A program made the translations under genes and the position numbers. From assembly GCF_009687865.1 (NCBI RefSeq), contig NZ_BLAE01000069.1, positions 1-64,000 of the forward strand: DNA of 64,000 bases. Reading direction: 5' to 3'. The DNA is from Acrocarpospora macrocephala. GTDB lineage: Bacteria > Actinomycetota > Actinomycetes > Streptosporangiales > Streptosporangiaceae. Shown here piece by piece: positions 1,200 through 26,911 of this stretch. The notes below the pieces were generated by a model, which was not told where the DNA came from, did not search any database, and was given only the letters and a program-made list of their open reading frames with translations. How positions within the stretch are numbered: position 1 is the stretch's first letter; each line of letters begins with the position of its first letter.

Positions 1200-1507
1200 G
1201 AATGCGCCACCTCAAGCCTCGGGTGTCTCCGGCATACCTCGCCGGTTTCTCTAAACCCATCAGAAGAAAATGAGGGTTATTCAAATAGTCACCGCTGGAA
1301 GTTACTGCGACCCTAAGGGCGGCTCCCGGCCCCGGGCCACGATCGCGTGCTGGCACCTTGTTGCCAGTAGCTAGCTGTCATCGCCACCCCGTGGTAGCGC
1401 CTTGACATCGCGGGGGGCGAGCTCAGATGCTGGTACGACACGCTATTATTGGCCGAAATCGAATACGCGCTATTCGCGAAATTCATCTCTTTGGAGCAGA
1501 GGCCGGG
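1200..1507. promoter_or_regulatory. Divergent intergenic region with AGGGTTATT and CCCTAAGGG elements
   Basis: About 308 bases separate the KSQ PKS start from the membrane-protein gene, with no convincing gene. AGGGTTATT (1273-1281) and CCCTAAGGG (1311-1319) resemble G-run, A/T-flanked elements in other promoter regions of this cluster (30.1, 33.9-34.1 and 40.7 kb). A perfect TTGACA sits at 1402-1407, but no good -10 lies at proper spacing. The role as a divergent promoter is inferred from gene orientation. Confidence 0.4.
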
Positions 1508-2356
1508 ATGAGCGACCAGCAGAACGCACCGGACTCCAGAATGGCAACCCCTATTTTCGATCCGGCCGATGTCGCCGATCGGTTGGAAGAGCACGTGCTG
1601 CCAGCGTGGCGGCCCCCACGCGTCGGCGAAAATCCTGTTCTCGAACCGGCCGATGCCACTGATCGGGCGGAAGAGCACGTGCTGCCAACGTGGCAGCCCC
1701 CACATGTCAGCGAAAATCCGCATCGCCCCGGCCGAGGTTCGCTTCGCCCAGGTCACCGCCTTGGGCTCGCCGGTGCCACGACCGCGGGCCTCGTGCCCAC
1801 CAGGTCCGCGCTGATATGGGCCGGTTTGGCCGGAGTGGGGCTGGTCGGGGAGAGCGTGCTGGTCCTGGTTCGCGGGATCGATCCGGTCGGGGTGGCCGCC
1901 TGGGTGGTCGAGCTGGTGGTCGTCGGGCTGCTGGTCTGGACGCGGCGGGCCGAGCCGGAGCCGGTGTCGGCGATCCGCTGGGGTTCCTTGGTCAGCCTGG
2001 CCGGGGGTACGGGCGCACTCGCTATCGGCGGAAATTTCACGTTGTTTCTGGCGATGCAGGCGCTGCCGGTGGTCGTGCTGAGCGCCGCGGTGCTCCGGCC
2101 GCTGGCCCGCCGTACCGGCTGGGTGTGGTCTGGCCAGGTCAGGGTGCGGCTCACGTGGACCGTCACCGGGACGTACGCCGGCCTGATCGCGTTCAGCCTG
2201 ATGCAAGATCGGCGGGGATTGCCGCTGATCCATCCCGATGTGGCGAGCCTGGTCACGCTCGGGACCATGTTCGAGACGGCGGTCACCGTCGCCATCGCCG
2301 TGATGTGGCTGGGGCGGCGGCAGCCGCGCCAGGACCCGGCGGAAACTACTCGCTAG
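1508..2356 (+). CDS. Putative integral membrane protein with duplicated N-terminal segment
   Basis: This 282-residue protein is of no family I recognise. Residues 1-90 are hydrophilic and hold a 28-residue segment present twice in tandem (EEHVLPAW / EEHVLPTW). About five hydrophobic helices follow: LIWAGLAGVGLVGESVLVLV, VAAWVVELVVVGLLVW, a segment around SLVSLAGGTGALAIGG, FLAMQALPVVVLSAAVL, and a C-terminal pair. The start at 1508 was preferred over 1427 because a GAGCAGAGG ribosome site precedes it. It ends 8 bases before the condensation-domain gene and is probably co-transcribed with it. A role in product export or membrane anchoring would fit the context but is not shown. Confidence 0.7.
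   Translation: MSDQQNAPDSRMATPIFDPADVADRLEEHVLPAWRPPRVGENPVLEPADATDRAEEHVLPTWQPPHVSENPHRPGRGSLRPGHRLGLAGATTAGLVPTRSALIWAGLAGVGLVGESVLVLVRGIDPVGVAAWVVELVVVGLLVWTRRAEPEPVSAIRWGSLVSLAGGTGALAIGGNFTLFLAMQALPVVVLSAAVLRPLARRTGWVWSGQVRVRLTWTVTGTYAGLIAFSLMQDRRGLPLIHPDVASLVTLGTMFETAVTVAIAVMWLGRRQPRQDPAETTR
1562..1719 (+). repeat. 84-bp tandem duplication inside the membrane-protein gene
   Basis: Two copies (1562-1645 and 1646-1719, the second slightly shorter) share the CCGGCCGAT start, the AGAGCACGTGCTGCCA core and the GAAAATCC end. The spacing is exactly 84 bp, so the frame is kept and 28 residues are duplicated. The copies have diverged at several positions, so the duplication is not brand new. Confidence 0.85.
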
Positions 2357-2364
2357 GAGAATCG

Positions 2365-3735
2365 ATGCCCGCCGACGCCCCCCTCAGCCACGGACAGCTT
2401 TTCAGCTGGCGCGAGATCGCACGGTATCCGGACGACTGGATGCAGGACGCGAACCTTCCCACCGTCTGGGACCTGCGGGGGCTCCCGCTGGCCCGGGTCG
2501 AGAACGCGCTGCGCGCGCTGATGGACCGGCACGAGGCGCTGCGTACCACCTACCACGTGGTGGACGGGCAGCCGGTGCAGCGCGTGCACGAATCGGCGGA
2601 GCCGCCGATCGAGCGGGTGGACCGGGTGGTCCCCGACCGGCAGGACCCGGAGGACACCAAGGACGCGCTCTGCGCGGTGCCGTTCCCGATGGAGGGCGGC
2701 CTGTGCTGGCGCGGGCAGCTGGTCACCACCGACGGGTCGCCGGTGTTCCTGGCGCTGTCCTTCTCGCACCTGATCCTGGACGTGTGGTCGATCAACCACC
2801 TGACCGACCAGTTCCGCGCCCTGGTCGCCGACCCGGAAGCGGTCGCAGAACTCGGGCCGACGCCGAGCGAGCTGGCCCGCGAGCAGCGGACCGAGCTGTG
2901 GCGGGAACGCAAGGAGGCGTCCGAGCGGTACTGGCGGCGCACCCTCGGCGACGTCCTGGCCGACCCGCTGCCGACCCTGCCGGCCCGGGTGAAGCGCAAC
3001 CGCGTCGAGGCGACCCTGCACTCGCACCGCCTCGGCGGGCTGGCCGCGCTGGCCGCCAGAAGGCTCGGCGTCACGCCGCCCGCAGTGGTGATGGCGCTGG
3101 TCGCGGCCGGTCTGGCCCGGCACACCAACACCGACACGGTGACGATGAGCCTGATGGCTTCCAACCGGTTCGCGCCGGAGCACCACCACGTGATCGGCAC
3201 GATGAACCAGCTCATCCCGGTCGTCGCGGCGGTCGACCCGGGGTCGTCGCTGGGCGAGCATGTCAAGCGCCTGCACTGGGCTGGGACCAGGGCGTACCGC
3301 TACTCGTCCTATGACTTCGACCGCATCGCCGCGCTGGCGGCGGAGGCCGCCGCGCAGCGCGGCGACGAGCCGGCCCACGACTGCTGGGTGAACCAGCTGT
3401 TCCGCTGCTGGTTCAACTACGTGCAGCTCGACCGCCAGCTGTCCGACCCCGTCGCCAAGAGCCCGGCCGAGCTGCTGTGGACGCCCCTGGCCCAGCAGTA
3501 CGGCCAGCCGTTCCGGGTCAGGGTGTCGGTGTTCAACGGCCGGACCAGCATCCTGATGCTCGCCGACCCGACGATCATCCCGGCCGAGGGCATGGCGGAC
3601 ATGCTGCGCGTGATCGCGCTCGGCGTCCAGGTCGCCGCGACCGACCCGGAGACCAGCCTCAAGGACCTGTGGAACAACGACCACGACACCCTGGCGCCGT
3701 CCCTGTTCCCTGCGGTGGTCCCCCTGCCGGAGTAA
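2365..3735 (+). CDS. Free-standing NRPS-type condensation domain protein (C1)
   Basis: This 456-residue protein consists of a single condensation domain (RHEALRTTY near residue 60, then SHLILDVWS, and a C-terminal half with a DRQLSDPV-like stretch). The usual HHxxxDG active site reads S-H-L-I-L-D-V: the second, catalytic His and the Asp are kept, while the first His and the Gly are replaced. C domains join a donor on a carrier protein to an amine (or hydroxyl) acceptor. With no A or PCP domain fused, it must work on separate carrier proteins such as the cluster ACPs. The ATG at 2365 follows AGGAGAATCG. It lies 8 bases after the membrane protein and ends back to back with the decarboxylase gene at 3736. 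The exact partners are inference. Confidence 0.88.
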   Translation: MPADAPLSHGQLFSWREIARYPDDWMQDANLPTVWDLRGLPLARVENALRALMDRHEALRTTYHVVDGQPVQRVHESAEPPIERVDRVVPDRQDPEDTKDALCAVPFPMEGGLCWRGQLVTTDGSPVFLALSFSHLILDVWSINHLTDQFRALVADPEAVAELGPTPSELAREQRTELWRERKEASERYWRRTLGDVLADPLPTLPARVKRNRVEATLHSHRLGGLAALAARRLGVTPPAVVMALVAAGLARHTNTDTVTMSLMASNRFAPEHHHVIGTMNQLIPVVAAVDPGSSLGEHVKRLHWAGTRAYRYSSYDFDRIAALAAEAAAQRGDEPAHDCWVNQLFRCWFNYVQLDRQLSDPVAKSPAELLWTPLAQQYGQPFRVRVSVFNGRTSILMLADPTIIPAEGMADMLRVIALGVQVAATDPETSLKDLWNNDHDTLAPSLFPAVVPLPE

Positions 3736-4938
3736 TCACACGAGCACTTCGACCGGCGCCGGATGGCCGAGAAAGGCTGTCGGGCTCGCCGTCAGGCCGT
3801 ACGCGCCGGCCTGGAACAGGACGATCAGATCGCCGATCTCGATTCGCGGGAGTTCCACCCGGTCACCGAGCAGGTCGAGCGGTGTGCACAGGCAGCCGAC
3901 CACGTTCACCGGCGCGTCCAGGGGCTCGCCCAGACGGTTGGCCACGGCCATCGGATAATTGCGCCGGATCACCTGCCCGAAATTCCCGGACGCCGCCAAC
4001 TGGTGATGCAGCCCGCCGTCCACGACCACGAAAGTCGTCCCCCGGGATTCCTTCCGGTCCACGACCCGCGTGATGTACACGCCGGCCTCGCCGACGAGAT
4101 AGCGCCCGAGCTCGATGACGACGCGGGCCTGCGGCAGGTGGGGCTTGATGCGCTCGCGCATGAGCCGCGCCAGATTGTCGCCGATCGGGTCCAGGTCGAG
4201 GGGATGGTCGCGACGCGAGTACGGGATGCCGAACCCGCCGCCGAGATTGAGATACCGAACCGGCGGCGACGCGGCGGCGAGTTCGAGAATCAGATCCACG
4301 GTGCGGTCCTGCGCCTCGCAGATACTGTCGGCGCGCAGGTTCTGCGAACCGCCGAACACGTGAAACCCCTGGAAATCAACGTCATCGCCCAACCCGGCGA
4401 GCACCTCGGGCACACGTTCCGCGTCGATCCCGAACTGCTGCGGCCCACCGCCCAGGCGCATCCCCGAGCCTCGTACGGTGAAATCGGGATTCACCCGCAG
4501 CGCGACTCGCGCCTGAACCCCGGTGGCGGCGCTGATCGCACGCACCCTGGCCAGTTCGGTCTCCGATTCCAGCTCCACGGTCACACCGGCCGCGATCGCC
4601 TGAGACAGCTCGTCGACGGTCTTGCCCGGCCCGGCGAAACTGATCCGCTCGGCAGGTGTCGACGTGTCGAGCGCATGCCGCATCTCCTGCGCCGAGGCCA
4701 CGTCGAAGCCGTCGACCAGCCCGCTCACATGCTGCAACAGCGCGGGCATCGGGTTCGCCTTGACGGCGTAACTCAGCTGGATTCCGTCCGGCAGGGCGGC
4801 GCGAACGGAGGCGACCCTGCGGGTGACGAGGTCGCGGTCATAGGCGAAGAACGGCGTGCTCCCGACCCGGGCGGCGAGCCGCTCGACCGGGACTCCCCCC
4901 ACGGTCAGGTGCCCGTCGCGGCGGCCTTCCCAGGTCAT
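3736..4938 (-). CDS. Group-IV PLP-dependent decarboxylase acting on a carrier-bound amino acid
   Basis: This 400-residue protein belongs to the alanine-racemase-fold/DAP-ornithine decarboxylase family. The PLP lysine lies in SYAVKANP, the phosphate-binding loop in LGGGFGIPY, and the C-terminal signatures in CTPLD and FQAGAYG. Relatives next to an AMP ligase and ACP (BtrK in butirosin, VinO in vicenistatin, and the decarboxylases of exosortase-A loci) decarboxylate an aminoacyl group while it is thioester-bound to the ACP. The same trio is present here, so a carrier-bound amine is the likely product. The start ATG shares one base with the stop of the ligase gene (TGATG at 4940-4936), so translation is coupled. 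The amino acid used cannot be read from sequence alone. Confidence 0.87.
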   Translation of the reverse strand: MTWEGRRDGHLTVGGVPVERLAARVGSTPFFAYDRDLVTRRVASVRAALPDGIQLSYAVKANPMPALLQHVSGLVDGFDVASAQEMRHALDTSTPAERISFAGPGKTVDELSQAIAAGVTVELESETELARVRAISAATGVQARVALRVNPDFTVRGSGMRLGGGPQQFGIDAERVPEVLAGLGDDVDFQGFHVFGGSQNLRADSICEAQDRTVDLILELAAASPPVRYLNLGGGFGIPYSRRDHPLDLDPIGDNLARLMRERIKPHLPQARVVIELGRYLVGEAGVYITRVVDRKESRGTTFVVVDGGLHHQLAASGNFGQVIRRNYPMAVANRLGEPLDAPVNVVGCLCTPLDLLGDRVELPRIEIGDLIVLFQAGAYGLTASPTAFLGHPAPVEVLV

Positions 4939-6569
4939 CAGGTCGCCCTCCGGCGGATCTCGGCGCGGTCGAACTTGCCGTTTCCGGACCGGGGCAGCGC
5001 GGTGGCGACCACGATCCGGCGCGGCACCATATACCGGGGCAGATCGCGTTCCAGCGCTGCGCGCAGCTCATCCGGAGCCGCGGCGGTGAGCACCACGTGG
5101 AGCACCACGTGCTCCCCCAGGTCCTCGTCCGGCACGCCGACGGCGACAGCCTCGGTGACCAGGCCGGTCGCGTACGCGGCCTCCTCCACCTCGGTCGGGC
5201 TCAGCCGATACCCGGACGTCTTGATCATGTCATCGGTACGCCCGACGAAGTAGATAAACCCCTCTTCGTCCCGGTACGCCACGTCGCCCGACCACACGGC
5301 GATCTCCTCGGCGCCAGGAGGAAACGGCCGAAACCTCTCCGCTGTACGAACCGGGTCATTCCAGTAGCCGAGTGACACCAGCGCCCCCCGATGCACGATC
5401 TCCCCTTCCTCGCCCGGGTCGCACGCCGAACCATCCGCCCGCACGACGAGGACCTCCGCGTTCGGAATCGCCTTGCCGATCGACCCCGGCCGGCGGTCGA
5501 TCTCCGCGGGCTCCAGGTACGTGGATCGGAACGCCTCGGTCAGGCCGTACATCAGAAAGGGCGTGGCCTGCGGGAACGTCTCGCGTAGCCAGGCCAGAGT
5601 GGTCTTGGGCAGCCGCCCGCCGGTGTTCGCGAAATACCGCAGGCTCCGCGTCGCCTCGGCCGGCCACCGCTGCGTCGCGAGCTGCGCCCACAGCGGCGGC
5701 ACGCAGGTCAGCGCCGTCACCCCATGCTTGGCGCAGAGCCGGACGACGTCGCGGGGCAGCAGGTAGTTGACCAGCACCACCTGCGCTCCGACCAGGAAGG
5801 ACGTGGTGAGCTGGCTCAAGCCCGCGTCGAAACTCAACGGCAGCGCCGCGAGCACCACATCGTCGGACGTGTGACCGAGGTAGCCAGCCACGCTCTCCGC
5901 GCCCGCGAGCAGATTGCCGTGACTCAGCACGACACCCTTCGGCGGGCCGGTGCTACCAGACGTGTAGAGAATGGCTGCAATACCCGATATATCCGGATCG
6001 GTGGGGGTGGACGCGGCCGGATCAGTGAGGGTGGGCGCGGCCGGATCAGTGAGGGTGGTGGACGCGGCCGGATCAGCCGCAGCGGTCGCCCCGGCCTGGC
6101 CAGGGCGGTTCGTGCCCGAGTCCCCGACCGGCCCTGCGTCTCTGACCAGCCCTGCGTCTCCGACCAGCCCCGTGTCTCCGACCAGCCCTGCGTCTCCGAC
6201 CAGCCCTGCGTCTCCGATCAGCAGCGTGGGCACCGAACCGCTCAGCGTGCGACCCCGCTCAGGAGTAGTGATCAGCAGCGCGGCGCCACAGTCCTCGACC
6301 ACATACTCAACCTGCCGAGCCTTAAAAAGCGGATTTATCGGGACAAAAACCCCACCAGCCGCCGCCACCGCGAACATCGCCACGACCGTTTCGAGCCGCT
6401 TCTCCGCATAAATCGCGACCCGAGCGCCCGACTCCAGCCCACGCAACCCCTCAGCCGCCCGAGCGACCCGATCACGCAGCTCACCATAGGTAAGAGTCGC
6501 GTTCTTGTACGTGACAGCCGCATGCTCAGCGACCCCGAACCGCAGCAGATCCTCGAAGCGCGTCACCAT
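4938..6569 (-). CDS. AMP-forming acyl/aminoacyl-ACP ligase with repetitive insertion
   Basis: This 543-residue adenylating enzyme carries the P-loop YTSGSTGPPKGV, the YGLTEAF motif, the hinge GYRLSPTEVEEAAY and the C-terminal catalytic Lys in SGNGKFD. It should activate a carboxylic acid, probably an amino acid, and load it on the ACP encoded just upstream (6573-6830). The decarboxylase downstream would then act on it. Between the Rossmann-like N-terminal part and the P-loop (about residues 115-200) is a low-complexity insertion made of GLVGDA hexapeptides followed by TDPAAPTL-like octapeptides. Relatives have no such insertion there, as far as I know. Its 1-bp overlap with the decarboxylase start supports an operon. 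Confidence 0.9.
   Translation of the reverse strand: MVTRFEDLLRFGVAEHAAVTYKNATLTYGELRDRVARAAEGLRGLESGARVAIYAEKRLETVVAMFAVAAAGGVFVPINPLFKARQVEYVVEDCGAALLITTPERGRTLSGSVPTLLIGDAGLVGDAGLVGDTGLVGDAGLVRDAGPVGDSGTNRPGQAGATAAADPAASTTLTDPAAPTLTDPAASTPTDPDISGIAAILYTSGSTGPPKGVVLSHGNLLAGAESVAGYLGHTSDDVVLAALPLSFDAGLSQLTTSFLVGAQVVLVNYLLPRDVVRLCAKHGVTALTCVPPLWAQLATQRWPAEATRSLRYFANTGGRLPKTTLAWLRETFPQATPFLMYGLTEAFRSTYLEPAEIDRRPGSIGKAIPNAEVLVVRADGSACDPGEEGEIVHRGALVSLGYWNDPVRTAERFRPFPPGAEEIAVWSGDVAYRDEEGFIYFVGRTDDMIKTSGYRLSPTEVEEAAYATGLVTEAVAVGVPDEDLGEHVVLHVVLTAAAPDELRAALERDLPRYMVPRRIVVATALPRSGNGKFDRAEIRRRAT
5995..6078. repeat. 24-bp tandem repeat inside the AMP-ligase gene
   Basis: Units begin GGATCAGTGAGGGTG and end GCGGCC, starting at 5995, 6019 and 6043 (the last is 27 bp), with a partial unit from 6070. 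All are multiples of three, so the frame is preserved. On the minus strand they encode TDPAAPTL-like octapeptides. Confidence 0.85.
6126..6215. repeat. 18-bp tandem repeat inside the AMP-ligase gene
   Basis: Five near-identical 18-bp units (consensus GACCAGCCCTGCGTCTCC) start at 6126, 6144, 6162, 6180 and 6198, with a degenerate sixth at 6216. They encode the GLVGDA hexapeptide on the minus strand. Near-identity of the copies implies recent slippage and possible length variation between strains. Confidence 0.92.
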
Positions 6570-6572
6570 GAC

Positions 6573-6830
6573 TCAGAGCCCGACCCGCGCCGACTCCAGC
6601 AGCACCGCCAGCGCCGCCCACAGCGACCCCACCGTCGCGAACGTCTCCTCATCGAGGATGTCGTCAGGCAGTTCGAGGTCGTACCCGTCCTCCAGATCGA
6701 CCAGCAACTGCACGACCCCCATCGAATCCAGCCCGAGCGCGGTGAGCTCGTCACCGGGAGCCAGCTCACCCGGCTCGGCATACGGCAGATGCCGGCGAAG
6801 AATGGCCTGGAACTCGTGAGGTATTTCCAT
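6573..6830 (-). CDS. Acyl carrier protein of the amino-acid loading cassette
   Basis: This 85-residue carrier protein has the phosphopantetheine attachment Ser in GLDSMGVVQL. The start at 6830 (MEIPHEF) was preferred over 6845 because GAGGAG lies eight bases upstream. It ends 3 bases before the ligase start and so heads an ACP-ligase-decarboxylase operon. It most likely carries the aminoacyl group that the ligase loads and the decarboxylase converts to an amine. It is divergent from the second C-domain gene at 7017. Confidence 0.9.
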   Translation of the reverse strand: MEIPHEFQAILRRHLPYAEPGELAPGDELTALGLDSMGVVQLLVDLEDGYDLELPDDILDEETFATVGSLWAALAVLLESARVGL

Positions 6831-7016
6831 CAGGGGTCTCCTCACAATACCTGCGCTGAATTACCTCGTTTCAGAGTCGTTGAATTCCGCGACAGGTGTC
6901 AAGCAAGCACTCTGGCAGCTTTTACCCGAAGACAATATGCCAGCGCCAACCCGGTACGGCGACCATATTCTCATTTAGCCTGAGTGGGCTGGACTGTTCA
7001 ACCGTGGGAGGCCGGG

Positions 7017-8366
7017 ATGTCCGGTGCGAAGAACGCGAATCTCGGCTGGGGCCAGCGTTATATCTGGCTCCGCTATCACGAACTGCCACCACACGCTCGC
7101 CACGATACACATATCATTCTGAATCTAGAGATTCCACCCGGCCTGACGATCCAGAACTGCCGGGCGATCCTCAACCAGCTGGTCCGCCGCCACGAGACGC
7201 TACGCACCACCTACCACGTCGACCCCGACGGCGACCCGTACCGGGTGGTGCTCCCACCGACCCCGTGTCCCCTCACCGTCATGTCCACCGAGAAGGACGG
7301 CACGCCCATGCCGGCCGAGGTCGTGGACCAACTCGGCCGCGCCGAGTTCGACATCGCCGCGGACCTGCCGATCCGGACCGCCATCAGCACCACCGCGGGC
7401 GAGCCCCGGCGGATCGTGCTGGTGCTGAACCACCTCGCGGTGGACATGTGGACGGTCCGCGAGCTCAAGCGCGAACTGCGGCTGAACTGCGCCGCCCTGG
7501 TGGCCCGCCGACCCGCCGCGATCGCACCGGTCCGGCACCGCCCGTCCGACCTCATCAGGTACGAGGCGACCCTGGACCCAGGCCCAGCGCTGGCCTATTG
7601 GGAGAAGGAAATCGAGTCCATGCGGACGGACGCGTTCGCCGACCGCCGCAGACCCGACGAGCCCCCGGAGACCCGGCGGGCGACACTGGTCTCCCCGGCC
7701 CTGCTGGCCGCCTCGCGCAGGATCGCGGCCCGCCACCGGGTGTGGCCGTCGCAGGTGCACCTGGCGGCCTACACGGCGCTGATGGCCACCTACACCGGCG
7801 GCCCGTCCTTCGACCACCTGACGTTCACGGGCAACCGCGAGACCGGCCCGTACGCGACGGTCCTGACCTGCATGTTCTCCCCGCTGCTCATGCGCGTCGA
7901 CGTAACGGACGACCCGAGTTTCGCCGAGCTACTGGCCCGGGTCGCCGACCGATTCGAGCAGGCGCGAGCGCACTCCTACGTCCCGTACGACAAGGTCGTC
8001 GAGCTGCTCGCCAAGAAGGGCACGCGCCTGGCGTCGGAGTTCAACTTCATCAAGCAGACCAGCCGCGAGTCCCGCGCGCGGCGCAGCCGGGTCACCTGGC
8101 AGGCGCCATCGGAAGATCACGGCGCCGACACCTACGTCCGGATCGACGAGTGGAAGGACGCCGTCGTGATCGCGCTGAGCGCCGCGTCCTCGGTCATGGC
8201 CGCGGACACCATCGAGCGCTTCCTGCGCGCCATGGAGACCGCGATCCTCACCTACGACGCGACCCCGGACGGCCTGCGGACCAGCGACATCGCCGCGCTG
8301 GCCGGTTTCCCCCCAGCACCTCCGCCCAGCCAGCAGACCGAACCGACGACCGGAGTCCGATCATGA
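7017..8366 (+). CDS. Free-standing NRPS-type condensation domain protein (C2)
   Basis: This 449-residue single condensation domain has LVRRHETLRTTYHV near the N-terminus and the active site N-H-L-A-V-D-M-W. As in C1, the catalytic second His and the Asp are present, while the first His and the Gly of HHxxxDG are changed. C1 and C2 are clearly paralogous (both have RHE-LRTTYHV) but not close. ATG 7017 follows GGGAGG at 7006-7011; an upstream in-frame ATG at 6984 has no such site. The stop overlaps the next start by four bases (ATGA), so it is translationally coupled to the unknown protein and the cysteine desulfurase. Amide or ester formation on carrier-bound intermediates is the expected role. 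Confidence 0.88.
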   Translation: MSGAKNANLGWGQRYIWLRYHELPPHARHDTHIILNLEIPPGLTIQNCRAILNQLVRRHETLRTTYHVDPDGDPYRVVLPPTPCPLTVMSTEKDGTPMPAEVVDQLGRAEFDIAADLPIRTAISTTAGEPRRIVLVLNHLAVDMWTVRELKRELRLNCAALVARRPAAIAPVRHRPSDLIRYEATLDPGPALAYWEKEIESMRTDAFADRRRPDEPPETRRATLVSPALLAASRRIAARHRVWPSQVHLAAYTALMATYTGGPSFDHLTFTGNRETGPYATVLTCMFSPLLMRVDVTDDPSFAELLARVADRFEQARAHSYVPYDKVVELLAKKGTRLASEFNFIKQTSRESRARRSRVTWQAPSEDHGADTYVRIDEWKDAVVIALSAASSVMAADTIERFLRAMETAILTYDATPDGLRTSDIAALAGFPPAPPPSQQTEPTTGVRS

Positions 8367-9253
8367 GTGAAGTGTTCGCAGAGACCATAACCAAGTCCCA
8401 GCAGCTCGTCGGTTCGGAGCAGGAGCTCCGCGCCGCCATCGACCGCGAACTCGCGTCGGCCGCCCTGGACGAGCTCGTCGTCATGGGCGGCCATTTCATG
8501 CTGTTCGAGGAGGAAGGCACCGGCAAACTCGTCCCCGGCGTCATGGAGGAGCAGTCCTCCGCCACGATGCGCCACCGGATCGCGGGCCGGGTCGGGATCT
8601 TCCCGAAATACACCTGGCAGCTGTCGGTCGACCTGATCACGTCGTACGCGCAGCTCGTCAACGACGCCAAGCTGCTGCTGCTGATCAACGACTGGCAGTA
8701 CGTCCCCACCGGCGGCCGCCCCGCCAGCCAGCTCCGCGCCGAGTTCTTCGAGGGCTTCACCGCGCTGCCGGACGGCTACCAGCAGGTCCTGCGCGACGCG
8801 GGTCTGAACGCGGACAGCGTGCTGCCCAGCCGCAAGCACGCGCTGGCGTTCCCGGAGACGTGGCTCAAGTACCGCTTCCAGAAGGCCGCCGACAAGTTCG
8901 TCAAGCAGGGCAAGCTGGAAAAGCGCGTGCTGGAGTCCGGCGCCAAGGACACCGAGGTCGCGTTCCTCGACGAAGCAGGCAACTACCGCACGCTGATCAG
9001 CTGCGGCATCACCGGCTGCGCCGGCGAGATCACCGAGATGATCTCGGAGGTGTACCTGGCCGGCTACCGGACCATCGTGATCTTCGCCCCGGGCGAGTGC
9101 CTGTCCCCGGTGCGCACCGGAGTGGAGATCGCGCTCAGCCTCTACCGGCTCACCGGCATGGTCGTCGTCATCGCCGACCCGGGCGGCAGCGGCGAGATGT
9201 CCACCGACGAGATCTACTCAAAACTGGTGACCGTCAGCACCTTCCGGAGCTGA
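8363..9253 (+). CDS. Unrecognised cysteine-containing protein between a C domain and a cysteine desulfurase
   Basis: I do not recognise the family of this 296-residue protein. It has no signal peptide or membrane helix. The C-terminal third looks like an alpha/beta fold. It carries Cys214 and Cys219 in ISCGITGCAG and Cys246 in APGECLSP, followed by the hydrophobic strand MVVVIADPGG. The N-terminal half is helical (FFEGFTALPDGYQQVL, TWLKYRFQKAADKF). It overlaps C2 by four bases and the desulfurase starts two bases after its stop, so the three are one translational unit. Because its partner mobilises sulfur from cysteine, the clustered cysteines could accept or carry sulfur. That is inference from context only. 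Confidence 0.8.
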   Translation: MSEVFAETITKSQQLVGSEQELRAAIDRELASAALDELVVMGGHFMLFEEEGTGKLVPGVMEEQSSATMRHRIAGRVGIFPKYTWQLSVDLITSYAQLVNDAKLLLLINDWQYVPTGGRPASQLRAEFFEGFTALPDGYQQVLRDAGLNADSVLPSRKHALAFPETWLKYRFQKAADKFVKQGKLEKRVLESGAKDTEVAFLDEAGNYRTLISCGITGCAGEITEMISEVYLAGYRTIVIFAPGECLSPVRTGVEIALSLYRLTGMVVVIADPGGSGEMSTDEIYSKLVTVSTFRS

Positions 9254-9254
9254 G

Positions 9255-10421
9255 ATGGACGTCATTTACCTGGACAACTGCGCCACCACCCGGGTGGACG
9301 AGGCCGTGCTCGACGCGATGCTGCCGTACCTGCGGGAGGAGTTCGGCAACCCGTCCTCCCCGCACCTGCTGGGCAAGCGGGCCCGCCGGGCGGTGGACGC
9401 CGCCACCGAGTCGGTCGCCGGACTCCTCGGCGCGGAGCCGGCCAGCATCGTGTTCACCTCGGGCGCGACCGAGAGCAACAACATCGCGCTGCTCGGCGCG
9501 TTCGCGCACGGCGACCGCGCCCCGGTCAACGCGGTGTTCTGCCCCACCGACCACAAGTCGTCGCTGTCGATCGCCCGGGCGCTGCGCGAGCGCGGCGTCG
9601 ACATCCGGACCATGGCGGTCCGGGCCGACGGCGTGGTCGACCTCCCCCAGTTCGCCAACCGGCTCGACTTCGACACCCGGACAGCCACGGTGGCCTGGGT
9701 GAACAGCGAGATCGGCACGATCCAGCCGGTCCGCGAGATGGCCGCGCTCTGCCACGAGAGCGGCGCGCTGCTGCACGTCGACGCCGCCCCCGCGGCGGGC
9801 CGGATCCCGATCGACGTGGCCGGCACGGCCGTCGACACGCTGGCCATGTCCGCCCACAAGATCGGCGGCCCGAAAGGCATCGGCGTCCTGTACGTGCGCC
9901 CGGAGATCCGCCGCCGGATCCGCCCGATCACCCACGGCGGCGGCCAGTACGACCTGCGCAGCGGCACCATCCCCACCCACCTGGTGGTCGGCCTCGGCAA
10001 GGCCTGCCAGCTGGCCGCGGCCCGGATGGAGGAGGACAGGAAGAAGGTCGCGCTGCTGCGCTCGATCGCGATGGAGCTGCTCACCCGCCGCATCCCCGGC
10101 CTGCGGATCAACGGGCACCCGCGGGCCGGCGTCCCGCACGTGCTGAACCTGGTGCTGCCGGGGGTGCGCGGCGAGAGCCTGGTCGCGAGCCTGCCGTCGG
10201 TGGCGCTGTCCACTGGCTCGGCGTGCAACTCCGACTCCCAGGAGCCCTCGCCGGTGCTCACCGCGATCGGAGTGAGCGCCGAGGACGCCAACAGCTCCAT
10301 CAGGATGTGCCTGAGCCCCAGCATGTCGGCCGAGGAACTGGTCAGGGGTCTGGACCTGGTCTGCGACCGGGCCCGTGGCCTCGCCGACGTCGTGGTGGCG
10401 ATGCACGGCGCTGTCCTCTGA
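9255..10421 (+). CDS. Cysteine desulfurase (NifS/IscS-like, PLP-dependent)
   Basis: This 388-residue aminotransferase class V enzyme has the N-terminal YLDNCATT motif, TSGATESNN, the PLP lysine in SAHKIGGPKG, HGGGQYDLRSGT and the catalytic Cys in STGSACNSD. It converts cysteine to alanine and forms an enzyme persulfide. It follows the unknown protein with one base between stop and start. No Fe-S assembly genes (IscU, SufB/D) are nearby, so it is more likely dedicated to the pathway than to housekeeping. Sulfur could go to the neighbouring Cys protein and then the product, but no sulfur-inserting enzyme is recognisable. Confidence 0.92.
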   Translation: MDVIYLDNCATTRVDEAVLDAMLPYLREEFGNPSSPHLLGKRARRAVDAATESVAGLLGAEPASIVFTSGATESNNIALLGAFAHGDRAPVNAVFCPTDHKSSLSIARALRERGVDIRTMAVRADGVVDLPQFANRLDFDTRTATVAWVNSEIGTIQPVREMAALCHESGALLHVDAAPAAGRIPIDVAGTAVDTLAMSAHKIGGPKGIGVLYVRPEIRRRIRPITHGGGQYDLRSGTIPTHLVVGLGKACQLAAARMEEDRKKVALLRSIAMELLTRRIPGLRINGHPRAGVPHVLNLVLPGVRGESLVASLPSVALSTGSACNSDSQEPSPVLTAIGVSAEDANSSIRMCLSPSMSAEELVRGLDLVCDRARGLADVVVAMHGAVL

Positions 10422-10458: not shown

Positions 10459-11460
10459 TCACGCGCCGCTGGCCAGGAACTTTCTGGCCGCCTGCACCCC
10501 GGCCTGAAACCTGCTGGTGGCGTCCAGATCCCGCATCAGGGTGGCGATGTGCCGGCGGCAGCTCCGTACCGACATGCCGAGCTTTCGGGCCACCACCTCA
10601 TCGGTGTAACCCTTCGCCATCAGCCCGGCGATGGCCTGCCGCAGGTCGTCGGCCACATTCGCGTAGCCGGACTCGGCGCCCTCCAGCGGCATCGCGGTGT
10701 CCCACAGATGATCGAACAGGTCGAGCAGGAACCGGACGATGCCGTCGTGGTGCACCCGCGCCACGTTGGTCTCCCCATCGGCCAGGCCGAACAGCACGAC
10801 CAGCGACCGGTCGAAGACGACCGCCGAGCGCGGGATGTGGCTGACCGTCCCGATCGCGGCGCCCGCGTCGGTAAGCTGCTTCAACTTCATCCGGGTGGAC
10901 AGATCGGCCCGGTTCCGGTGCTGGCAGATGATCCGCACGGTGACCCCGCGCGCGAGCAGCGGCAGGTACGCCTGCGCCAGCTCCTCGGCGTCATCCTCAC
11001 TGGACTGCAGGACCAGCACCTCGGTACGGCACGCGTCACCGGCCATCTTGAGAAAGCCCCGCACCTCCAGCGACCCGACCAGATACTCGATCTGCGACGG
11101 CGCCGCGACAGGTCCGCCGTAGTCTTCTCGGAACACGTCGATCCGCTCCCGGATCTGGTCGATCAGCTCCCGCCGCTGGTAGATCTCCCGCTCCACCGAG
11201 GAGACCAGCGCGTTCGCCGCGACCTGCGGGTCCACCGGGATGAACCGGCGGGCCGCGCCGTCCACGGCGCGTAACAGGCGGCTCTCGACGAGCTGGTCCA
11301 CCGCCTCGTTCAGCTCGCGCATGCCGATGCCGAGCTCGACGGCGGCCACGTCGAGAGCGTCGATGGCGCCGTTCCTGGTCGCGTAGCGGTAGACACCGGT
11401 GACGTGGGCGCCCCCGGCGCGGACGGAATCGGCAAGCCACGTGGTGGTCGAATTCTTCAT
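10459..11460 (-). CDS. LuxR-type HTH transcriptional regulator with TrmB-like architecture
   Basis: This 333-residue protein has an N-terminal winged-helix-like segment (residues 1-75, ELGIGMRELNEAVDQL), a coiled region (YQRRELIDQIRERIDVF), a middle domain with VLVLQSSEDDAEEL and VFDRSLVVLFG (the PLD-like sensor fold of TrmB-type regulators), and a C-terminal LuxR HTH (KGYTDEVVARKLGMSVRSC). The start at 11460 has GAGGAGACAG upstream. It is the last gene of the long minus-strand operon, 11 bases after the exporter permease, so it probably regulates the cluster or its own exporter. It has no phospho-acceptor domain. Confidence 0.85.
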   Translation of the reverse strand: MKNSTTTWLADSVRAGGAHVTGVYRYATRNGAIDALDVAAVELGIGMRELNEAVDQLVESRLLRAVDGAARRFIPVDPQVAANALVSSVEREIYQRRELIDQIRERIDVFREDYGGPVAAPSQIEYLVGSLEVRGFLKMAGDACRTEVLVLQSSEDDAEELAQAYLPLLARGVTVRIICQHRNRADLSTRMKLKQLTDAGAAIGTVSHIPRSAVVFDRSLVVLFGLADGETNVARVHHDGIVRFLLDLFDHLWDTAMPLEGAESGYANVADDLRQAIAGLMAKGYTDEVVARKLGMSVRSCRRHIATLMRDLDATSRFQAGVQAARKFLASGA

Positions 11461-11471
11461 GGACTGTCTCC

Positions 11472-12614
11472 TCAGAGGGTTCTCGTGCGTCGGCTGAACA
11501 GGACGAGGGACAGGCTCAGCAGGGCGGCGGCCATCAGGGCCAGTACGGCGACGTCGAGCAGCACGTCGCCGAGCCCGGTGCCGGGCCGGGACAGGGTCAG
11601 CAGGGCGTCCATTCCCCAGGCGTGCGGGAAGAGGCGGCCGATGGCGTTGAGCACGTCGCCGGCGGCCTCGCTGGGCCACAGGCAGCCGCCGAGCATGCCG
11701 AGCACGATGCCGAGCGGCGGCCCGATCGCGGACGGCTGCGCGGACGAGCGCACCAGGCTGCCCATCAGGATCGCGGCGCCGGTGGAGACCAGCGCGAACA
11801 CGCCGACGACGGTGGCGACGCCGAGCGGCTCGCCCCAGGAGACGCCGAACAGCAGCGAGCTCACCACCATGATCAGCACGGCTTGGGCGGCGGCCACGAG
11901 GAACCGGCTGAGCGCCTCGCCGAACAGGACGGCGCCGCGCCGCACCGGGGCGGTGAAGGCCCGCTGCAGCATGCCGATGCGGCGGCTCTCGGCGAGCGCG
12001 GCGGCGACGGCCATGGAGTTGATGAACGTGAACAGCAGCAGGTTGGCCGGGGCGGTGTAGGCGAACCCGCGCGGGGTGCCGGACGCGGTGTCGGAGTTGA
12101 CCACTTCGACGTCGGCGGAGGCGTCCTGCGCCTTCCGTACCAGCGCGGCGGCCTCGGCCGGGGTCGCGCCGGCCGACGTGGCGGCGCGGGTGGCCTCGAG
12201 GACGGCCGCGACCTTGCCGACGGCGACGTCGACGGCGCTGCGGGCGGCCATGCCGCTGCCGTTGGACTGGGTCATGACCAGCTCGAACCTGGTCGAGCCC
12301 GGCGGGATGACGAGCCCGGCGGCCAGCGAGCCCTCCCGGACACCGGCCCGCAGCTCTTCCTTGTCGCCGACCGTGGTGATCTCCAGGTCGGGGTGCGCGC
12401 GCAGTTCCGTCAGGACGGCGGCGGCCACCGGGTCGGAGCCCTGGGCGACCACGCCGACCGGCAGCCGGGACGCGGCGGTGCCGCCGCCCAGCGCCATGCC
12501 GACGAAGATGATGCTGACGAACGGCATCACCACGATGAAGAACAGGCCGACCCGGTCGCGGGAGTGGCGGCGCAGGTTGGCGGCGACGAGCGCCAGGACG
12601 GGGTGCGGTCTCAT
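11472..12614 (-). CDS. ABC-2 type exporter permease
   Basis: This 380-residue ABC-2 permease has one N-terminal membrane helix (LFFIVVMPFVSIIFVGMAL), a large extracytoplasmic loop of about 150 residues, then five or six C-terminal helices. It pairs with the paralogous permease upstream (ATGA overlap at 12611-12614) and the ATPase at 13791. Together they should form a heterodimeric drug/product exporter, giving self-resistance or secretion of the cluster product. Confidence 0.9.
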   Translation of the reverse strand: MRPHPVLALVAANLRRHSRDRVGLFFIVVMPFVSIIFVGMALGGGTAASRLPVGVVAQGSDPVAAAVLTELRAHPDLEITTVGDKEELRAGVREGSLAAGLVIPPGSTRFELVMTQSNGSGMAARSAVDVAVGKVAAVLEATRAATSAGATPAEAAALVRKAQDASADVEVVNSDTASGTPRGFAYTAPANLLLFTFINSMAVAAALAESRRIGMLQRAFTAPVRRGAVLFGEALSRFLVAAAQAVLIMVVSSLLFGVSWGEPLGVATVVGVFALVSTGAAILMGSLVRSSAQPSAIGPPLGIVLGMLGGCLWPSEAAGDVLNAIGRLFPHAWGMDALLTLSRPGTGLGDVLLDVAVLALMAAALLSLSLVLFSRRTRTL

Positions 12615-13789
12615 CCGAGTAGTCCCTTCCTGAAGCCCATCGCGGCGAGGCAGAAGGCGGCCAACGCGATCGCGCACAGGACGCCGATCGGCGCGGCCAC
12701 CGAGGCCAGACCCGCGCCGGAGCCGGCCAGGCCGGTCAGCCCGGTGGTGGTCCAGGCGTTCGGGGTGAACAGGGCGATCTTCTGGAGCAGGTCGGGCAGG
12801 TTGTAGAGCGGGACCAGGCTGCCGCCGAAGAACGCGGCCACGAACGAGATCACCATGATCACCCCGTCCGCCTGGGCGTCGGTCCTGGCCCGGCTGGCGA
12901 CCAGCATGGTGATCGCGGTGGCGGCCAGCACGTGCGCGAGCAGGAGGGTGAAGACGGCCACCGGATCACCCCAGGTGGAGCCGAAGATCAGCACCGAGGA
13001 CGCCCAGGTGACGCAGACGCTGACCATGGCGAGCGCGAACCCGACGACGGCCTTGCCGGCGATCGGGACCCAGGCGTGGATCGGCCCGGCCCGCATCCGG
13101 TCCAGGGTGCCCTGCTTGCGTTCGATCAGCAGGCTGCGGAAGGACGCGCCGACCACGAAAAAGGCGAACAGCGCGGCCATGCCGGCGCCGTAGTAGACCG
13201 ACAGGTCCACCTTGCCGCCGGCCATCGGGTCGTTCTCCAGGGTCAGGGCGGGTCCGGTCGCGCCGTTGCGCTCCACGAACTCCTTGACCTCGGCGGCGGG
13301 GATGCCCGCGTCCAGGGAGGCGCGGACCGCGAGTGTGCGGGCCCGCACCAGGGAGGAGATCCGGTCCACGACCGCGTTCGCGACCACTCCGGCCAGCGGC
13401 GAATCGGCCGAGGTGAGCACGCCGACCTGGCCGCCCTCGCCCGCGCCGACGCTGGCGCTGAACCCCTTCGGGAACACGATCGCGGCCCCGATGTCGCCGG
13501 CGTCCAGGGCGGTCTGGGCCTGCTCGCGGCCGGGCAGGTCGCGCAGCGTCAGCACGCCGTCGAGCTCGGTGGACGCCATGACTTCGCGGCGGACGCCGGC
13601 CGGGAACTCGCCGCCGTCCAGGTCGACGAAGCCCACGGTGGCCCGCAGCGGCGGGTCGTCGCCGCCGAGCGCCACCCCGAACAGGGTGGCCATGGCCACC
13701 GGCACGATGATCGCGATGACCAGGGCGGTGCGATCCCGCACCCGGGTGCGGAACTCCAGGGCGCTCACGGTGAGCAGCGGTCGCAACAT
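12611..13789 (-). CDS. ABC-2 type exporter permease
   Basis: This 392-residue ABC-2 permease has an N-terminal helix (ALVIAIIVPVAMATLFGVAL), a long extracellular loop, and C-terminal helices including the LLIERKQGTLDRMRAGP segment typical of ABC-2 transporters. It starts one base after the ATPase stop and overlaps the next permease by four bases. It is functionally part of the exporter with 11472-12614 and 13791-14729. Confidence 0.9.
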   Translation of the reverse strand: MLRPLLTVSALEFRTRVRDRTALVIAIIVPVAMATLFGVALGGDDPPLRATVGFVDLDGGEFPAGVRREVMASTELDGVLTLRDLPGREQAQTALDAGDIGAAIVFPKGFSASVGAGEGGQVGVLTSADSPLAGVVANAVVDRISSLVRARTLAVRASLDAGIPAAEVKEFVERNGATGPALTLENDPMAGGKVDLSVYYGAGMAALFAFFVVGASFRSLLIERKQGTLDRMRAGPIHAWVPIAGKAVVGFALAMVSVCVTWASSVLIFGSTWGDPVAVFTLLLAHVLAATAITMLVASRARTDAQADGVIMVISFVAAFFGGSLVPLYNLPDLLQKIALFTPNAWTTTGLTGLAGSGAGLASVAAPIGVLCAIALAAFCLAAMGFRKGLLG

Positions 13790-13790
13790 G

Positions 13791-14729
13791 TCAGTCCCTG
13801 AGCGTGCTGCCGGTGAGGTGCAGGAAGGTGGCCTCGAGGTCGGGTTCGACGACCTCGACGGCGGTGACGGTGGCGATGCCGTCGACGGTGGCGATGATCG
13901 CAGGCAGCAGGTACCGGCCGCCTTCGGCGATCAGCCGGACCGACCCGGCCGCGGTGCGGGCCGCTTCGGTGACGCCGCCCACGCCGCGGAGCTTGGCGAT
14001 CGCGGTCTCGACGTCGCCGTCCAGGGTGAGCTCGATCCGGTCCGCGCCGCCGACCAGCTCGACCAGCTCGTGGCGGGTGCCCTCGGCGACGATGGCGCCG
14101 TGGTCGATGATGGCGACCCGGTGGCAGATCCGCTCGACTTCCTCCATGTAGTGCGAGGTGTAGAGCAGGGCCATGCCGTCGGCGACCAGGCGTTCGACGC
14201 CGTCCAGGATGGCCTTGCGGCTCTGCGGGTCGACGCCGACCGTGGGCTCGTCCAGGATGAGCAGTTCGGGGCGGTGCAGCAGGGCGGCGCCGATGTTGAT
14301 GCGCCGCTTCATGCCCCCGGAGTAGGTGTCGAGCTTGGCGTCGGCGCGGTCGGCGAGGCCGACCAGGTCGAGCACCTCGTCGATGCGCCCGCGCAGCTCC
14401 TTGCGCGGGAGGCCGAACAGGCGGCCGAAGAAGCGCAGGTTCTCCCGGCCGGTCAGGTCCGGGTAGAGGGCGATCTCCTGCGGGACGTAGCCGATCTTCG
14501 CCTTGGCCGCCATCGGGTCGGTCGCCAGGTCGGTGCCGCCGACCACGACCGTCCCGGTGTCGGGCTTGAGCAGGCCGACCAGCATGGAGATCGTGGTGGT
14601 CTTGCCGGCGCCGTTCGGGCCCAGCAGCCCGTACGCCTCCCCCGGCGCGATGGTGAATCCGACATCGGCCACCGCCACTACGTCGCCGTACTTCTTGCTG
14701 AGATTTTCGCAGTTCAGCGTGTTGGTCAT
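13791..14729 (-). CDS. ABC exporter ATP-binding protein (DrrA-like)
   Basis: This 312-residue ATPase has Walker [12 protein letters not shown]-loop [11 protein letters not shown], signature YSGGMKRR, Walker [14 protein letters not shown] and the switch His in [11 protein letters not shown]-terminal domain of about 90 residues is typical of DrrA-type multidrug exporters. The start at 14729 was chosen because it overlaps the stop of the beta-helix gene (ATGA). It energises the two downstream permeases. Confidence 0.94.
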
Positions 14730-15730
14730 GGCCGCCACCCCGCCACTTCGTCCGGTTCTCCCTTGGCGGCGACGTTGCCGGCGAAGGTCTGGAGTTCGAG
14801 GTCGACGCCGAGCTGGTAGTCCAGCGGCGTGTTGCCGGTGACCCGGTTCCAGAGGATGTGGTTAGCCACCGCGTCGTCGCCGCCCCAGCCCTTGGACGAG
14901 CCCATCACGAAGGCGGCGCCCATCACGGACTCGCCGCTGGGGTGGTTGTCGTGGATGTGGTTGTCGACCACGCTGATCCGCTCGGTGCCGATCAGCGCGA
15001 TCCCGACCCCCGAGATCGGCGGGCCCGCCGCGCCCAGCGAGCCGGGGTCCTCGCCGCCGGCGGCCAGGTCGTTGCCGTAGACGTCGTTGCCGGCGATCAG
15101 GCAGTCCCGGACCCCGCCGTCCGGTTCCCCCTTGTAGGTCTGGTTGAGCAGCATCAGCCCGATCGCGTTGCCGTGGCTGGTGTTGCGCAGCACCCGTACG
15201 CCGCTGGAGTTGTCGACGAACACGCCGAACGCGTTGGCGAACGTCTCGTTGCCCTCGATGAGCGCCCCGCCGCGGGCGCAGAAGCTGACCGCGACACCGG
15301 CGTACTGGCTGCCGGAGGCCCGGCACCTGAGCACCTCGCAGCCGGTGGTCTCGCGCACGTAGACACCCCAGACCGCGTTGTCCACGACGGTCGCGTCCCG
15401 GACGGCGAGGCCGGTGACGGAGTGGGCGTAGAGGCCGGCGCCGGAGAAGCCGCGCACCGTGAGCCCGGTGACGGTGAGGTCGCGGACGCCGTGCGCGACG
15501 ACGCCGGAGACCACGTCCTCGCTCGCGTCGTGCAGCTTGGGGATGTCGGCTCGGACCCCTGGTCCGGGGACCAGCACGGCCCCTTCACCGTGCAGGGTCA
15601 CCCCGTCGTGCCTGATCCAGGCGCTCCCCGGGTACGTCCCGGCGGCGAGCAGGATCGTCGCGCCGGGGCCTGCCTCGTCCAGGGCGGTCTGGAGGGACTC
15701 GCCGGGCTGGACCGTTCTGGTTATGGACAT
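14726..15730 (-). CDS. Cytoplasmic right-handed parallel beta-helix protein
   Basis: This 334-residue protein has no signal peptide or membrane helix. It starts with SLQTALDEAGPGATILLAAGTYPG, the usual cap of pectate-lyase/NosD-type beta-helices. Successive coils with Asn-rich turns follow (GNETFANAFGVFVDNSSGV, NTSHGNAIGL, NDVYGND, NHIHDNH). Such folds are usually secreted polysaccharide lyases or epimerases, so an intracellular copy deep in a PKS operon is unusual. It could be a tailoring or cyclising enzyme or a scaffold. No catalytic set is obvious. GGAAGGAC precedes the ATG, and it overlaps its neighbours by 10 and 4 bases. Confidence 0.85.
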   Translation of the reverse strand: MSITRTVQPGESLQTALDEAGPGATILLAAGTYPGSAWIRHDGVTLHGEGAVLVPGPGVRADIPKLHDASEDVVSGVVAHGVRDLTVTGLTVRGFSGAGLYAHSVTGLAVRDATVVDNAVWGVYVRETTGCEVLRCRASGSQYAGVAVSFCARGGALIEGNETFANAFGVFVDNSSGVRVLRNTSHGNAIGLMLLNQTYKGEPDGGVRDCLIAGNDVYGNDLAAGGEDPGSLGAAGPPISGVGIALIGTERISVVDNHIHDNHPSGESVMGAAFVMGSSKGWGGDDAVANHILWNRVTGNTPLDYQLGVDLELQTFAGNVAAKGEPDEVAGWRP

Positions 15731-16182
15731 CGGGCGTCCTTCCTGTCGACGTAGACGACGGCGAGGGAGACGAGCAGCCCGTCGCCGCTCCCCCAGCGGG
15801 CCGCGCCCGCCACGGGGCCGGCCAGCCGCAGGCGGGCGGCGTCCCGGCAGGCGCCGCGCAGGGTGTAGGCCGCGCCGCCGGTCAGGGCCAGGCCGGTGGC
15901 GGCGGTGAGCTCGGCCGCCGCCTCGTCGAGCAGCTCGCCGGTCCAGGCCGGCGGCGGTTCCGGCGTGGCCTCGAAGTCGTGCCAGGTGAAGCCTGGTGGA
16001 CGACCGCCGACCGCCTTGATGAAGCTCTCCTTGACCGAGAACGTGGCCGTGCCCGGGCCGAGGTCGCGCTCGGCGACGGTGGTGAGGTGGCGGGTGAAGG
16101 TCGCGCCGCCGCGCGCGGCGGCCCTGGCCAGCCGGTCGGCTGCGACGATGTCCACCCCGATCAGGACGGCCGGCGTGGTCAT
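15721..16182 (-). CDS. AcpS-type 4'-phosphopantetheinyl transferase, canonical residues
   Basis: This 153-residue AcpS-family protein has GVDIVAADRL at the N-terminus (Mg-binding Asp) and FSVKESFIKAVGG (the conserved K-E pair). It should transfer phosphopantetheine from CoA to the cluster carrier proteins. It starts by ATGA overlap with the hydrolase gene. It is the second AcpS-like protein in the operon and the one that keeps the catalytic residues. Confidence 0.85.
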   Translation of the reverse strand: MTTPAVLIGVDIVAADRLARAAARGGATFTRHLTTVAERDLGPGTATFSVKESFIKAVGGRPPGFTWHDFEATPEPPPAWTGELLDEAAAELTAATGLALTGGAAYTLRGACRDAARLRLAGPVAGAARWGSGDGLLVSLAVVYVDRKDARCP

Positions 16183-16964: not shown

Positions 16965-16975
16965 CGCTGCTCCAG

Positions 16976-17809: not shown

Positions 17810-18219
17810 CACGCGTCCTCCGGGAGCCCGGCCGACGCCACGGCTACCGCCAGGGCCCGGCCGGAGGTGTGGCTGAGCGAGAGCCGGATCCGCTGGTCGG
17901 TCCGGGCGGCGAGGGCCGGGCTGAGCCGTACGAAAGGAGGGTGGCCGTCGTTGCAGGCGGCGGTACGGGCGCAGGCGGCGGTGGGCTGGGGCAGGACCTC
18001 GACCTGGGCCAGGTGCTCGGCCGTCGGCGGCACCCCGAGCAGGCGCAGGACGGCGCGTTTGGCGGCCAGCCGACCGGCCCAGTGCTGGAGCGACCGACCG
18101 GCGCCGGAGCGCAGCCGCTCCGCGGGGGTGTAGACGTCTTCGATCCGCATGCCGTCCAGCAGGTCATGCGGCAGGGTGAGCCCGGCGAAGCCGACCACGG
18201 CGCTACCCCACCGGTTCAT
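17809..18219 (-). CDS. AcpS-like phosphopantetheinyl-transferase family protein with altered catalytic motif
   Basis: This 136-residue protein shows the AcpS pattern WAGRLAAKRAVLRLLG and a C-terminal LSLSHTSGRALAVAV. In active AcpS enzymes the first motif reads A-K-E; here it is A-K-R, so the Mg-coordinating Glu is missing. Activity is therefore doubtful, and it may be a non-catalytic or differently specialised homologue beside the canonical copy at 15721-16182. The ATG at 18219 overlaps the malonyl transferase stop (ATGA). Confidence 0.75.
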   Translation of the reverse strand: MNRWGSAVVGFAGLTLPHDLLDGMRIEDVYTPAERLRSGAGRSLQHWAGRLAAKRAVLRLLGVPPTAEHLAQVEVLPQPTAACARTAACNDGHPPFVRLSPALAARTDQRIRLSLSHTSGRALAVAVASAGLPEDA

Positions 18220-24133: not shown

Positions 24134-24160
24134 GCTGGTCTCCTTACCTGGCGGAACCGA

Positions 24161-25225: not shown

Positions 25226-25228
25226 TGC

Positions 25229-25989: not shown

Positions 25990-26019
25990 CTGTCCTCCAG
26001 GTTGGGGGTACCGGGGTCT

Positions 26020-26772: not shown

Positions 26773-26911
26773 CGTCTCCAGATTCGCGGGACAATCACAC
26801 TGCAAATAGTCCGTATCTTCACGAATCAAGCTACTAAGGCGCGATATCACGCCTGTATCACCGAGTTATCCCAGGATTGACGTGCATTAGCGGATATATG
26901 ACTCTGGCGCA

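Follow-up and report, generated by a model that had tools for sequence, protein, structure and literature searches.

Why should a cysteine desulfurase be translated together with a free-standing condensation (C) domain and a protein of uncharacterised function? This question is raised by a stretch of 64,000 nucleotides from Acrocarpospora macrocephala, a member of the Streptosporangiaceae (contig NZ_BLAE01000069.1, positions 1 to 64,000; here called the window), in which three plus-strand genes are closely packed. The first, at 7017-8366, encodes a C domain protein (PF00668, E 4.5e-26) of 449 amino acids (aa) from an ATG start, or of 460 aa if an alternative GTG start at 6984 is used. The second (8363-9253) encodes a 296-aa protein of the LPD16 family and the third (9255-10421) a 388-aa cysteine desulfurase of the IscS/NifS type (PF00266, E 1.2e-68). 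The end of the C domain gene and the start of the LPD16 gene have an ATGA in common (8363-8366), and a single base (9254) separates the LPD16 gene from the desulfurase gene. A first-pass annotation of the window had described this unit with its 4-base overlap and 1-base gap, and had pointed to Cys214, Cys219 and Cys246 in the middle protein, which are indeed its sole cysteines; coordinates and residues were all confirmed. It had also called this protein unknown, which holds for its function but not for its domain family, since LPD16 has already been described (29.3 bits at a cut-off of 27). The arrangement is not due to chance, because the desulfurase stands beside LPD16 in all 27 other genomes of the family which carry it, and in 26 of them the C domain is found on that contig too (in G245 it is on another contig). 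LPD16 and the desulfurase very probably form a dedicated functional partnership.

Constancy of the LPD16-desulfurase pair

The pair was followed through 64 loci, comprising two plasmids, 27 stretches from the family and 35 loci obtained when 84,980 species genomes were scanned by pattern. Since 25 of these 35 duplicate LPD16 genes of the 27 family stretches, the distinct LPD16 matches number 38. A desulfurase gene on the same strand was found beside LPD16 in 63 of the 64 loci (37 of the 38 distinct ones), at a distance of at most 127 bases from match end to match end. The sole locus without it, L091, ends 128 bases past its LPD16 match. Apart from this contig-end case, homologues lacking a desulfurase, which the first-pass annotation had named as counter-evidence to its proposal of a dedicated sulfur route, were sought and not found in any of the 64 loci, and the proposal is supported by the desulfurase as constant partner. 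In a verrucomicrobial metagenome-assembled genome (MAG) the order of the two genes is reversed and the LPD16 identity is 27%. Within the family, a desulfurase orthologue (E <= 1e-110) is present in exactly the 28 of 297 genomes carrying LPD16. The pairwise identities of the partners are correlated (Spearman 0.94 over 36 loci and 0.84 over 11 diverse loci), to which host relatedness contributes.

In a sample of 396 genomes of the phylum, no genome other than that of the window carries LPD16, and 26 of the 35 scan loci lie in genera which we take to belong to the Streptosporangiaceae. The other nine come from Pseudomonas TH31, Pseudomonas S31, P. guariconensis, Paenibacillus, Halalkalibacter, Caldalkalibacillus, Pandoraea, Brucella pecoris and the verrucomicrobial MAG. 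The scan was seeded by two peptide patterns and misses divergent LPD16 relatives. Two Priestia plasmids also encode the protein, at 59% identity.

The desulfurase of the window combines membership in the class V aminotransferase family with Lys202 for pyridoxal phosphate (PLP) and Cys324 for the persulfide, as is characteristic of the IscS/NifS type, and its best PDB matches are NFS1/IscS desulfurases (top match 8pk8_A, E 8.4e-86). Cys324 lies within the motif STGSACNS, and the catalytic cysteine is kept in all 63 partner loci. Identity is 29-36% to the four other members in its own genome and 41-50% to the partner desulfurases of other phyla (33% in the MAG), the two ranges being computed by different methods. 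The scores fall short of the curated NCBIfam equivalog cut-offs (NifS 336.8 against 530.75; IscS 337 against 548 and 327.3 against 643.2), as would be expected of a dedicated branch. The shortfall could also be taken to mean that a PLP enzyme was recruited for chemistry other than that of sulfur, with LPD16 as its ligase partner; with the persulfide loop and the PLP lysine motif intact and the catalytic cysteine present in every one of the 63 partner loci, we consider this highly improbable.

Predicted fold and cysteine site of LPD16

PF18830 (residues 101-193, E 7.4e-7) is the sole Pfam family matched by the LPD16 protein. NCBIfam gave no match and PHROGs a single one at E 0.37; no relatives were found in phages or viral contigs, and sequence searches yielded no credible relative among solved structures. 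In two models the protein is predicted to adopt the catalytic-domain fold of class I aminoacyl-tRNA synthetases. His44 would lie in the first core strand, Cys214 and Cys219 between a strand and helix 218-232, and Cys246 at the beginning of helix 244-260, with the cysteines adjoining these helices at the ends of core strands. His44, Cys219 and Cys246 are present in 35 of 35 sequences (34 of alignment A2 and the MAG) and Cys214 in 34; in the MAG protein, a cysteine occupies the column preceding this position. All three cysteines are invariant in the 30 sequences of alignment A1, Priestia included. Their loss, likewise named beforehand as counter-evidence, was sought and not found. The conserved cysteines fit a persulfide acceptor or a sulfur transferase, the role which the first-pass annotation had considered possible.

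Judged from the predicted topology, the site seems to be placed comparably to the zinc ligands of CysRS and MshC. LPD16 could be a metal-dependent, cysteine-binding ligase of the MshC/CysRS kind, in which His44 and the cysteines hold zinc and the zinc holds the thiolate of a substrate cysteine, the sulfur being removed or used again by the desulfurase afterwards. This is unlikely in our view: ArgRS scores higher (13.9) in the fold comparison, the LPD16 protein has neither HIGH nor KMSKS, and its shallow alignment gave no profile match to MshC or CysRS.

Cyclodipeptide synthases (CDPS) keep the class I fold without its ATP motifs. The same combination is predicted for LPD16, and a CDPS appears as a weak Foldseek match (rank 29, E 0.093), which would be consistent with an enzyme using aminoacyl-tRNA. 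We judge such a function very unlikely. The hhalign probability is 0.1 percent against 25 CDPS, the CDPS family PF16715 gave no Pfam match, no CDPS is among the 50 VIA matches listed, and the desulfurase would be left unexplained. In the case of the tRNA 2-thiouridylases and other PP-loop ATPases, the SGGxDS motif was found in 0 of the 35 sequences and NCBIfam gave no match; MnmA and ThiI are not among the 50 VIA matches listed, which does not imply their exclusion.

Three conserved cysteines next to a desulfurase also recall iron-sulfur (Fe-S) proteins, and LPD16 might carry or assemble a cluster fed by its partner. In four proteobacterial loci the pair is accompanied by a B12-dependent radical S-adenosylmethionine (SAM) enzyme, itself an Fe-S protein, but no homologue of this protein was found in the window, in three other family clusters or in the remaining loci searched. 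No scaffold or carrier family was matched in Pfam or NCBIfam. An Fe-S role is distinctly unlikely. The absence of Fe-S partners nearby, already seen in the first-pass annotation, was confirmed among 30 window translations scanned with Pfam, which cover most open reading frames (ORFs) of the first 33 kb.

As a side observation, the window's genome (L194, G000 contig 47) and relatives from its genus contain an extra CysRS-like paralogue in which KMSKS has degenerated to KIRKV. A conserved in-frame TAG of a CysRS paralogue is located just upstream of the coding part.

Proposed route of sulfur

The reading which we prefer, though tentatively and at somewhat less than even odds, is that LPD16 and the desulfurase constitute a self-contained two-protein module for sulfur transfer. 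Sulfur would be drawn from L-cysteine by the desulfurase, with Cys324 as the carrier of the persulfide, and we infer that this persulfide is passed to the site formed by Cys214, Cys219 and Cys246, perhaps together with His44. LPD16 would be a degenerate enzyme of the class I synthetase fold, holding an activated acyl or aminoacyl group, or a similar substrate, in the pocket that takes up amino acids in synthetases and delivering the sulfur to it. The proposal follows the analogy of the thiotetronate pair described below; in its favour we count the constant pairing and correlated divergence of the partners, the conserved residues of both proteins, the predicted fold and the lack of a thioesterase domain in six PKS proteins of the Herbidospora orthologue.

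Several points weigh against this proposal. The synthetase fold rests on predictions: Foldseek returned only two matches with E <= 0.001, and the synthetase matches have TM-scores of 0.29-0.40 (query length) at a root-mean-square deviation of 6.7-14.0. The loop of Cys214 is modelled with a pLDDT below 50. Profile comparison by hhalign gave no match to ArgRS, MshC/CysRS or CDPS (0.2 percent for ArgRS, 0.6 percent for MshC/CysRS), the LPD16 alignment being shallow (Neff 2.5). HIGH, KMSKS and SGGxDS were found in 0 of the 35 sequences and therefore ATP use is unproven; in the control, HxGH was present in 12 of 14 ArgRS and 18 of 18 MshC/CysRS sequences, and KMSKS-like motifs in 5 and 17 of these, respectively. 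Binding of a metal or of an Fe-S cluster is just as conceivable a role for the three cysteines. Finally, the 28 genomes of the Streptosporangiaceae do not count as 28 independent events because they share descent.

If the proposal is true, a fold known from protein synthesis has been put to use for delivering sulfur and has spread over four phyla as part of a portable pair. LPD16 beside a desulfurase would then be a sequence handle for sulfur-bearing antibiotics, including those from clusters of two or three genes which standard mining tools may miss, and the question to what the pair adds sulfur would become directly testable.

Gene clusters containing the pair

The three-gene unit of the first-pass annotation stands as described, but the neighbourhood to which it belongs is larger and includes a second C domain, an acyl carrier protein (ACP), an AMP ligase and a PLP decarboxylase. 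The gene of the free-standing carrier protein (acyl or peptidyl, 90 aa; 6573-6845, minus strand; PF00550, E 5.2e-9) also has a counterpart next to the unit in 26 of the 27 other family loci; only L043, cut short at a contig edge, is without it. On the same strand follow an AMP-forming acyl or aminoacyl ligase (4938-6569; TIGR03098, 665.7 bits, cut-off 592.35) and a PLP decarboxylase resembling diaminopimelate decarboxylase (3736-4938; TIGR03099, 584.6 bits, cut-off 478.45), the latter present in 10 of the 27 loci. The second free-standing C domain protein (2365-3735, plus strand, 456 aa; PF00668, E 6.3e-30 in the longer frame 1690-3732) has orthologues in 25 of the 27; L037 and L043, which lack it, are both cut by contig ends. 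On the proposed route, the sulfur-bearing unit would in the window be joined to the polyketide by means of the two C domains and the ACP, ligase and decarboxylase set.

The polyketide synthase (PKS) itself is a modular type I enzyme whose start, a KSQ-type loading ketosynthase (DAGQSSSL), was recognised in the translation of positions 1-1199 (minus strand); it runs off the contig end and has an orthologue in G109. Downstream of the unit, all on the minus strand, lie a LuxR-type helix-turn-helix regulator (10459-11679; GerE match below the Pfam cut-off), syntenic in 26 of the 27 other family loci (the contig of L054 stops before it), an ABC exporter of two ABC-2 permeases and an ATPase (11472-14738; PF12698, PF00005), and, as cluster edge, a NosD/right-handed beta-helix protein (14726-15730; PF13229, PF05048). 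The permeases and the beta-helix gene of G109 have homologues in G263 and G239. Herbidospora pks-1 was described as a nine-module, polyene-like PKS (PMC4599437), and in the parts of its main text available to us the word desulfurase does not occur. No thioesterase domain was detected in six of the seven PKS proteins of the Herbidospora orthologue, the six which were scanned. Three ORFs were discarded: 2353-3684 (minus strand) is antisense to the second C domain, 156-1316 (plus strand) is antisense to the PKS start over 156-1199, and 1313-2233 (minus strand) is doubtful, having no family match.

Two further observations concern the surroundings. The ACP, ligase and decarboxylase trio (3736-6845) stands in an actinobacterial PKS cluster; its ligase and decarboxylase score above the thresholds set for two families associated with exosortase A (TIGR03098, TIGR03099). 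Adjoining the cluster is a type II PKS-like set (16179-32867) with a SnoaL-like cyclase, FAD monooxygenases, a 733-aa ketosynthase protein, an ACP, a ketoreductase and a BTAD/SARP-type regulator; it includes a GcvT-like aminomethyltransferase (24161-25225), which one would not usually expect beside an aromatic PKS.

The first-pass annotation had suggested that the sulfur route is joined to acyl or peptidyl condensation; an inherent tie of this kind was not supported. Orthologues of the C domain (E <= 1e-60) occur in the 28 LPD16-bearing family genomes and also in G035 (74% complete), whose homologue, at 43% identity, stands beside a PLP decarboxylase (L198, 9902-14015); neither LPD16 nor the desulfurase was found there on a 19-kb stretch. 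Outside the Streptosporangiaceae, 0 of the 10 loci carrying both genes have a C domain match beside the pair. The active-site motif of the C domain at 7017-8366 reads NHLAVDM; the second histidine and the aspartate of HHxxxDG are kept, and the first histidine and the glycine are altered.

The company of the pair differs among other organisms. In Paenibacillus and Halalkalibacter it is joined by a drug/metabolite transporter (DMT) family exporter (TIGR00950 below cut-off), and no other biosynthetic gene was recognised by eye beside this set; Caldalkalibacillus has the pair, with a desulfurase ORF of only 363 aa. The Priestia locus encodes, besides the pair, a short Ddl-like (D-Ala-D-Ala) ligase, ComX-type signalling genes, holo-ACP synthase, ACP, acyl-CoA dehydrogenase, aminoacyl-ACP ligase, a DMT transporter, an ATP-grasp protein, an alpha/beta hydrolase, an alanine permease and an alanine racemase (Alr). 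Pseudomonas TH31 has a Ddl-like gene together with a transporter and LuxR/LuxI-like neighbours (both by eye). A Ddl-like gene, a TIGR04434-type B12-radical SAM enzyme and a cystathionine-lyase-like PLP enzyme accompany the pair in Pandoraea, Brucella pecoris and Pseudomonas S31 (two ORFs for the radical SAM protein in S31); P. guariconensis has the latter two enzymes as well, and an additional full-length Ddl is found in B. pecoris, S31 and P. guariconensis. Quorum-sensing genes thus flank LPD16 operons in TH31 (LuxR/LuxI-like, by eye; L083, 7975-9836) and Priestia (ComX-type; L029, 18073-22164). The verrucomicrobial pair (L092, 8161-13658) stands between an alpha/beta hydrolase-like gene and a 954-aa methyltransferase-like protein (by eye), possibly for a different product.

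The occurrence of the pair in antibiotic-type clusters of several unrelated bacteria suggests an undescribed route of sulfur into small molecules. Alternative candidate products are a thiolactone or an isothiocyanate as in paulomycin. The Ddl and Alr companions hint at a D-alanine-type target, and we can offer, as a speculation with a slim chance of being correct, that LPD16 proteins are a new class of synthetase-derived enzymes which thiolate amino acids: capture of an activated amino acid by the desulfurase-derived persulfide would yield an amino thioacid or, if cysteine takes part, a cycloserine-like cyclic acyl disulfide, a warhead antagonising D-alanine metabolism which the Streptosporangiaceae joined to a polyene-type polyketide. 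The action of such a warhead would account for the finding, near the pair in Priestia and the Proteobacteria, of exporters, extra D-Ala-D-Ala ligases and an alanine racemase. By tblastn, no Ddl or Alr was found in the window or in the cluster stretches of G109, G263 and G239, a result that argues either against a shared target in these clusters or for another form of immunity.

Comparison with known systems

With ArgRS, CysRS and MshC, LPD16 shares the predicted class I catalytic-domain fold. It differs from them in the missing HIGH and KMSKS motifs, in a length of 296 aa which leaves no room for a separate tRNA-binding domain, and in its conserved cysteines and constant desulfurase neighbour. 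Thiouridylases and class I synthetases are both HUP-fold proteins.

The LPD16 domain is known from polyvalent proteins of conjugative elements, where its function was called elusive in the portion of the report accessible to us (PMC5512222). The likeness to these proteins lies in residues 101-193, whereas the protein of the window is a stand-alone one of about 296 aa beside a desulfurase.

The closest functional parallel is thiotetronate biosynthesis. According to the available sections of PMC5518548, sulfur is supplied there by a NifS-like desulfurase and a tRNA-thiouridylase-like transferase (StuS/StuJ, TlmS/TlmJ); loss of the desulfurase gene abolished the product, and a triple mutant was fully restored only with both genes. 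There too, a product of PKS and non-ribosomal peptide synthetase assembly is served by a dedicated desulfurase together with a sulfurtransferase. However, LPD16 has neither a thiouridylase profile match nor the SGGxDS loop, and the stu and tlm pairs are described at a separate locus, in contrast to the LPD16-desulfurase pair inside its cluster. A published cluster with a proposed ThiF-like sulfur relay has its desulfurase beside an ACP, a ligase and an acyl-CoA dehydrogenase, much like Priestia, but among the gene-table rows listed no LPD16 protein is named. We found no published description of a pair with a synthetase-fold partner in the literature searched, which covers few of the subscription journals. 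Dedicated desulfurase/sulfurtransferase pairs serving antibiotics are already known; the predicted synthetase-fold partner with this signature appears to be the new part.
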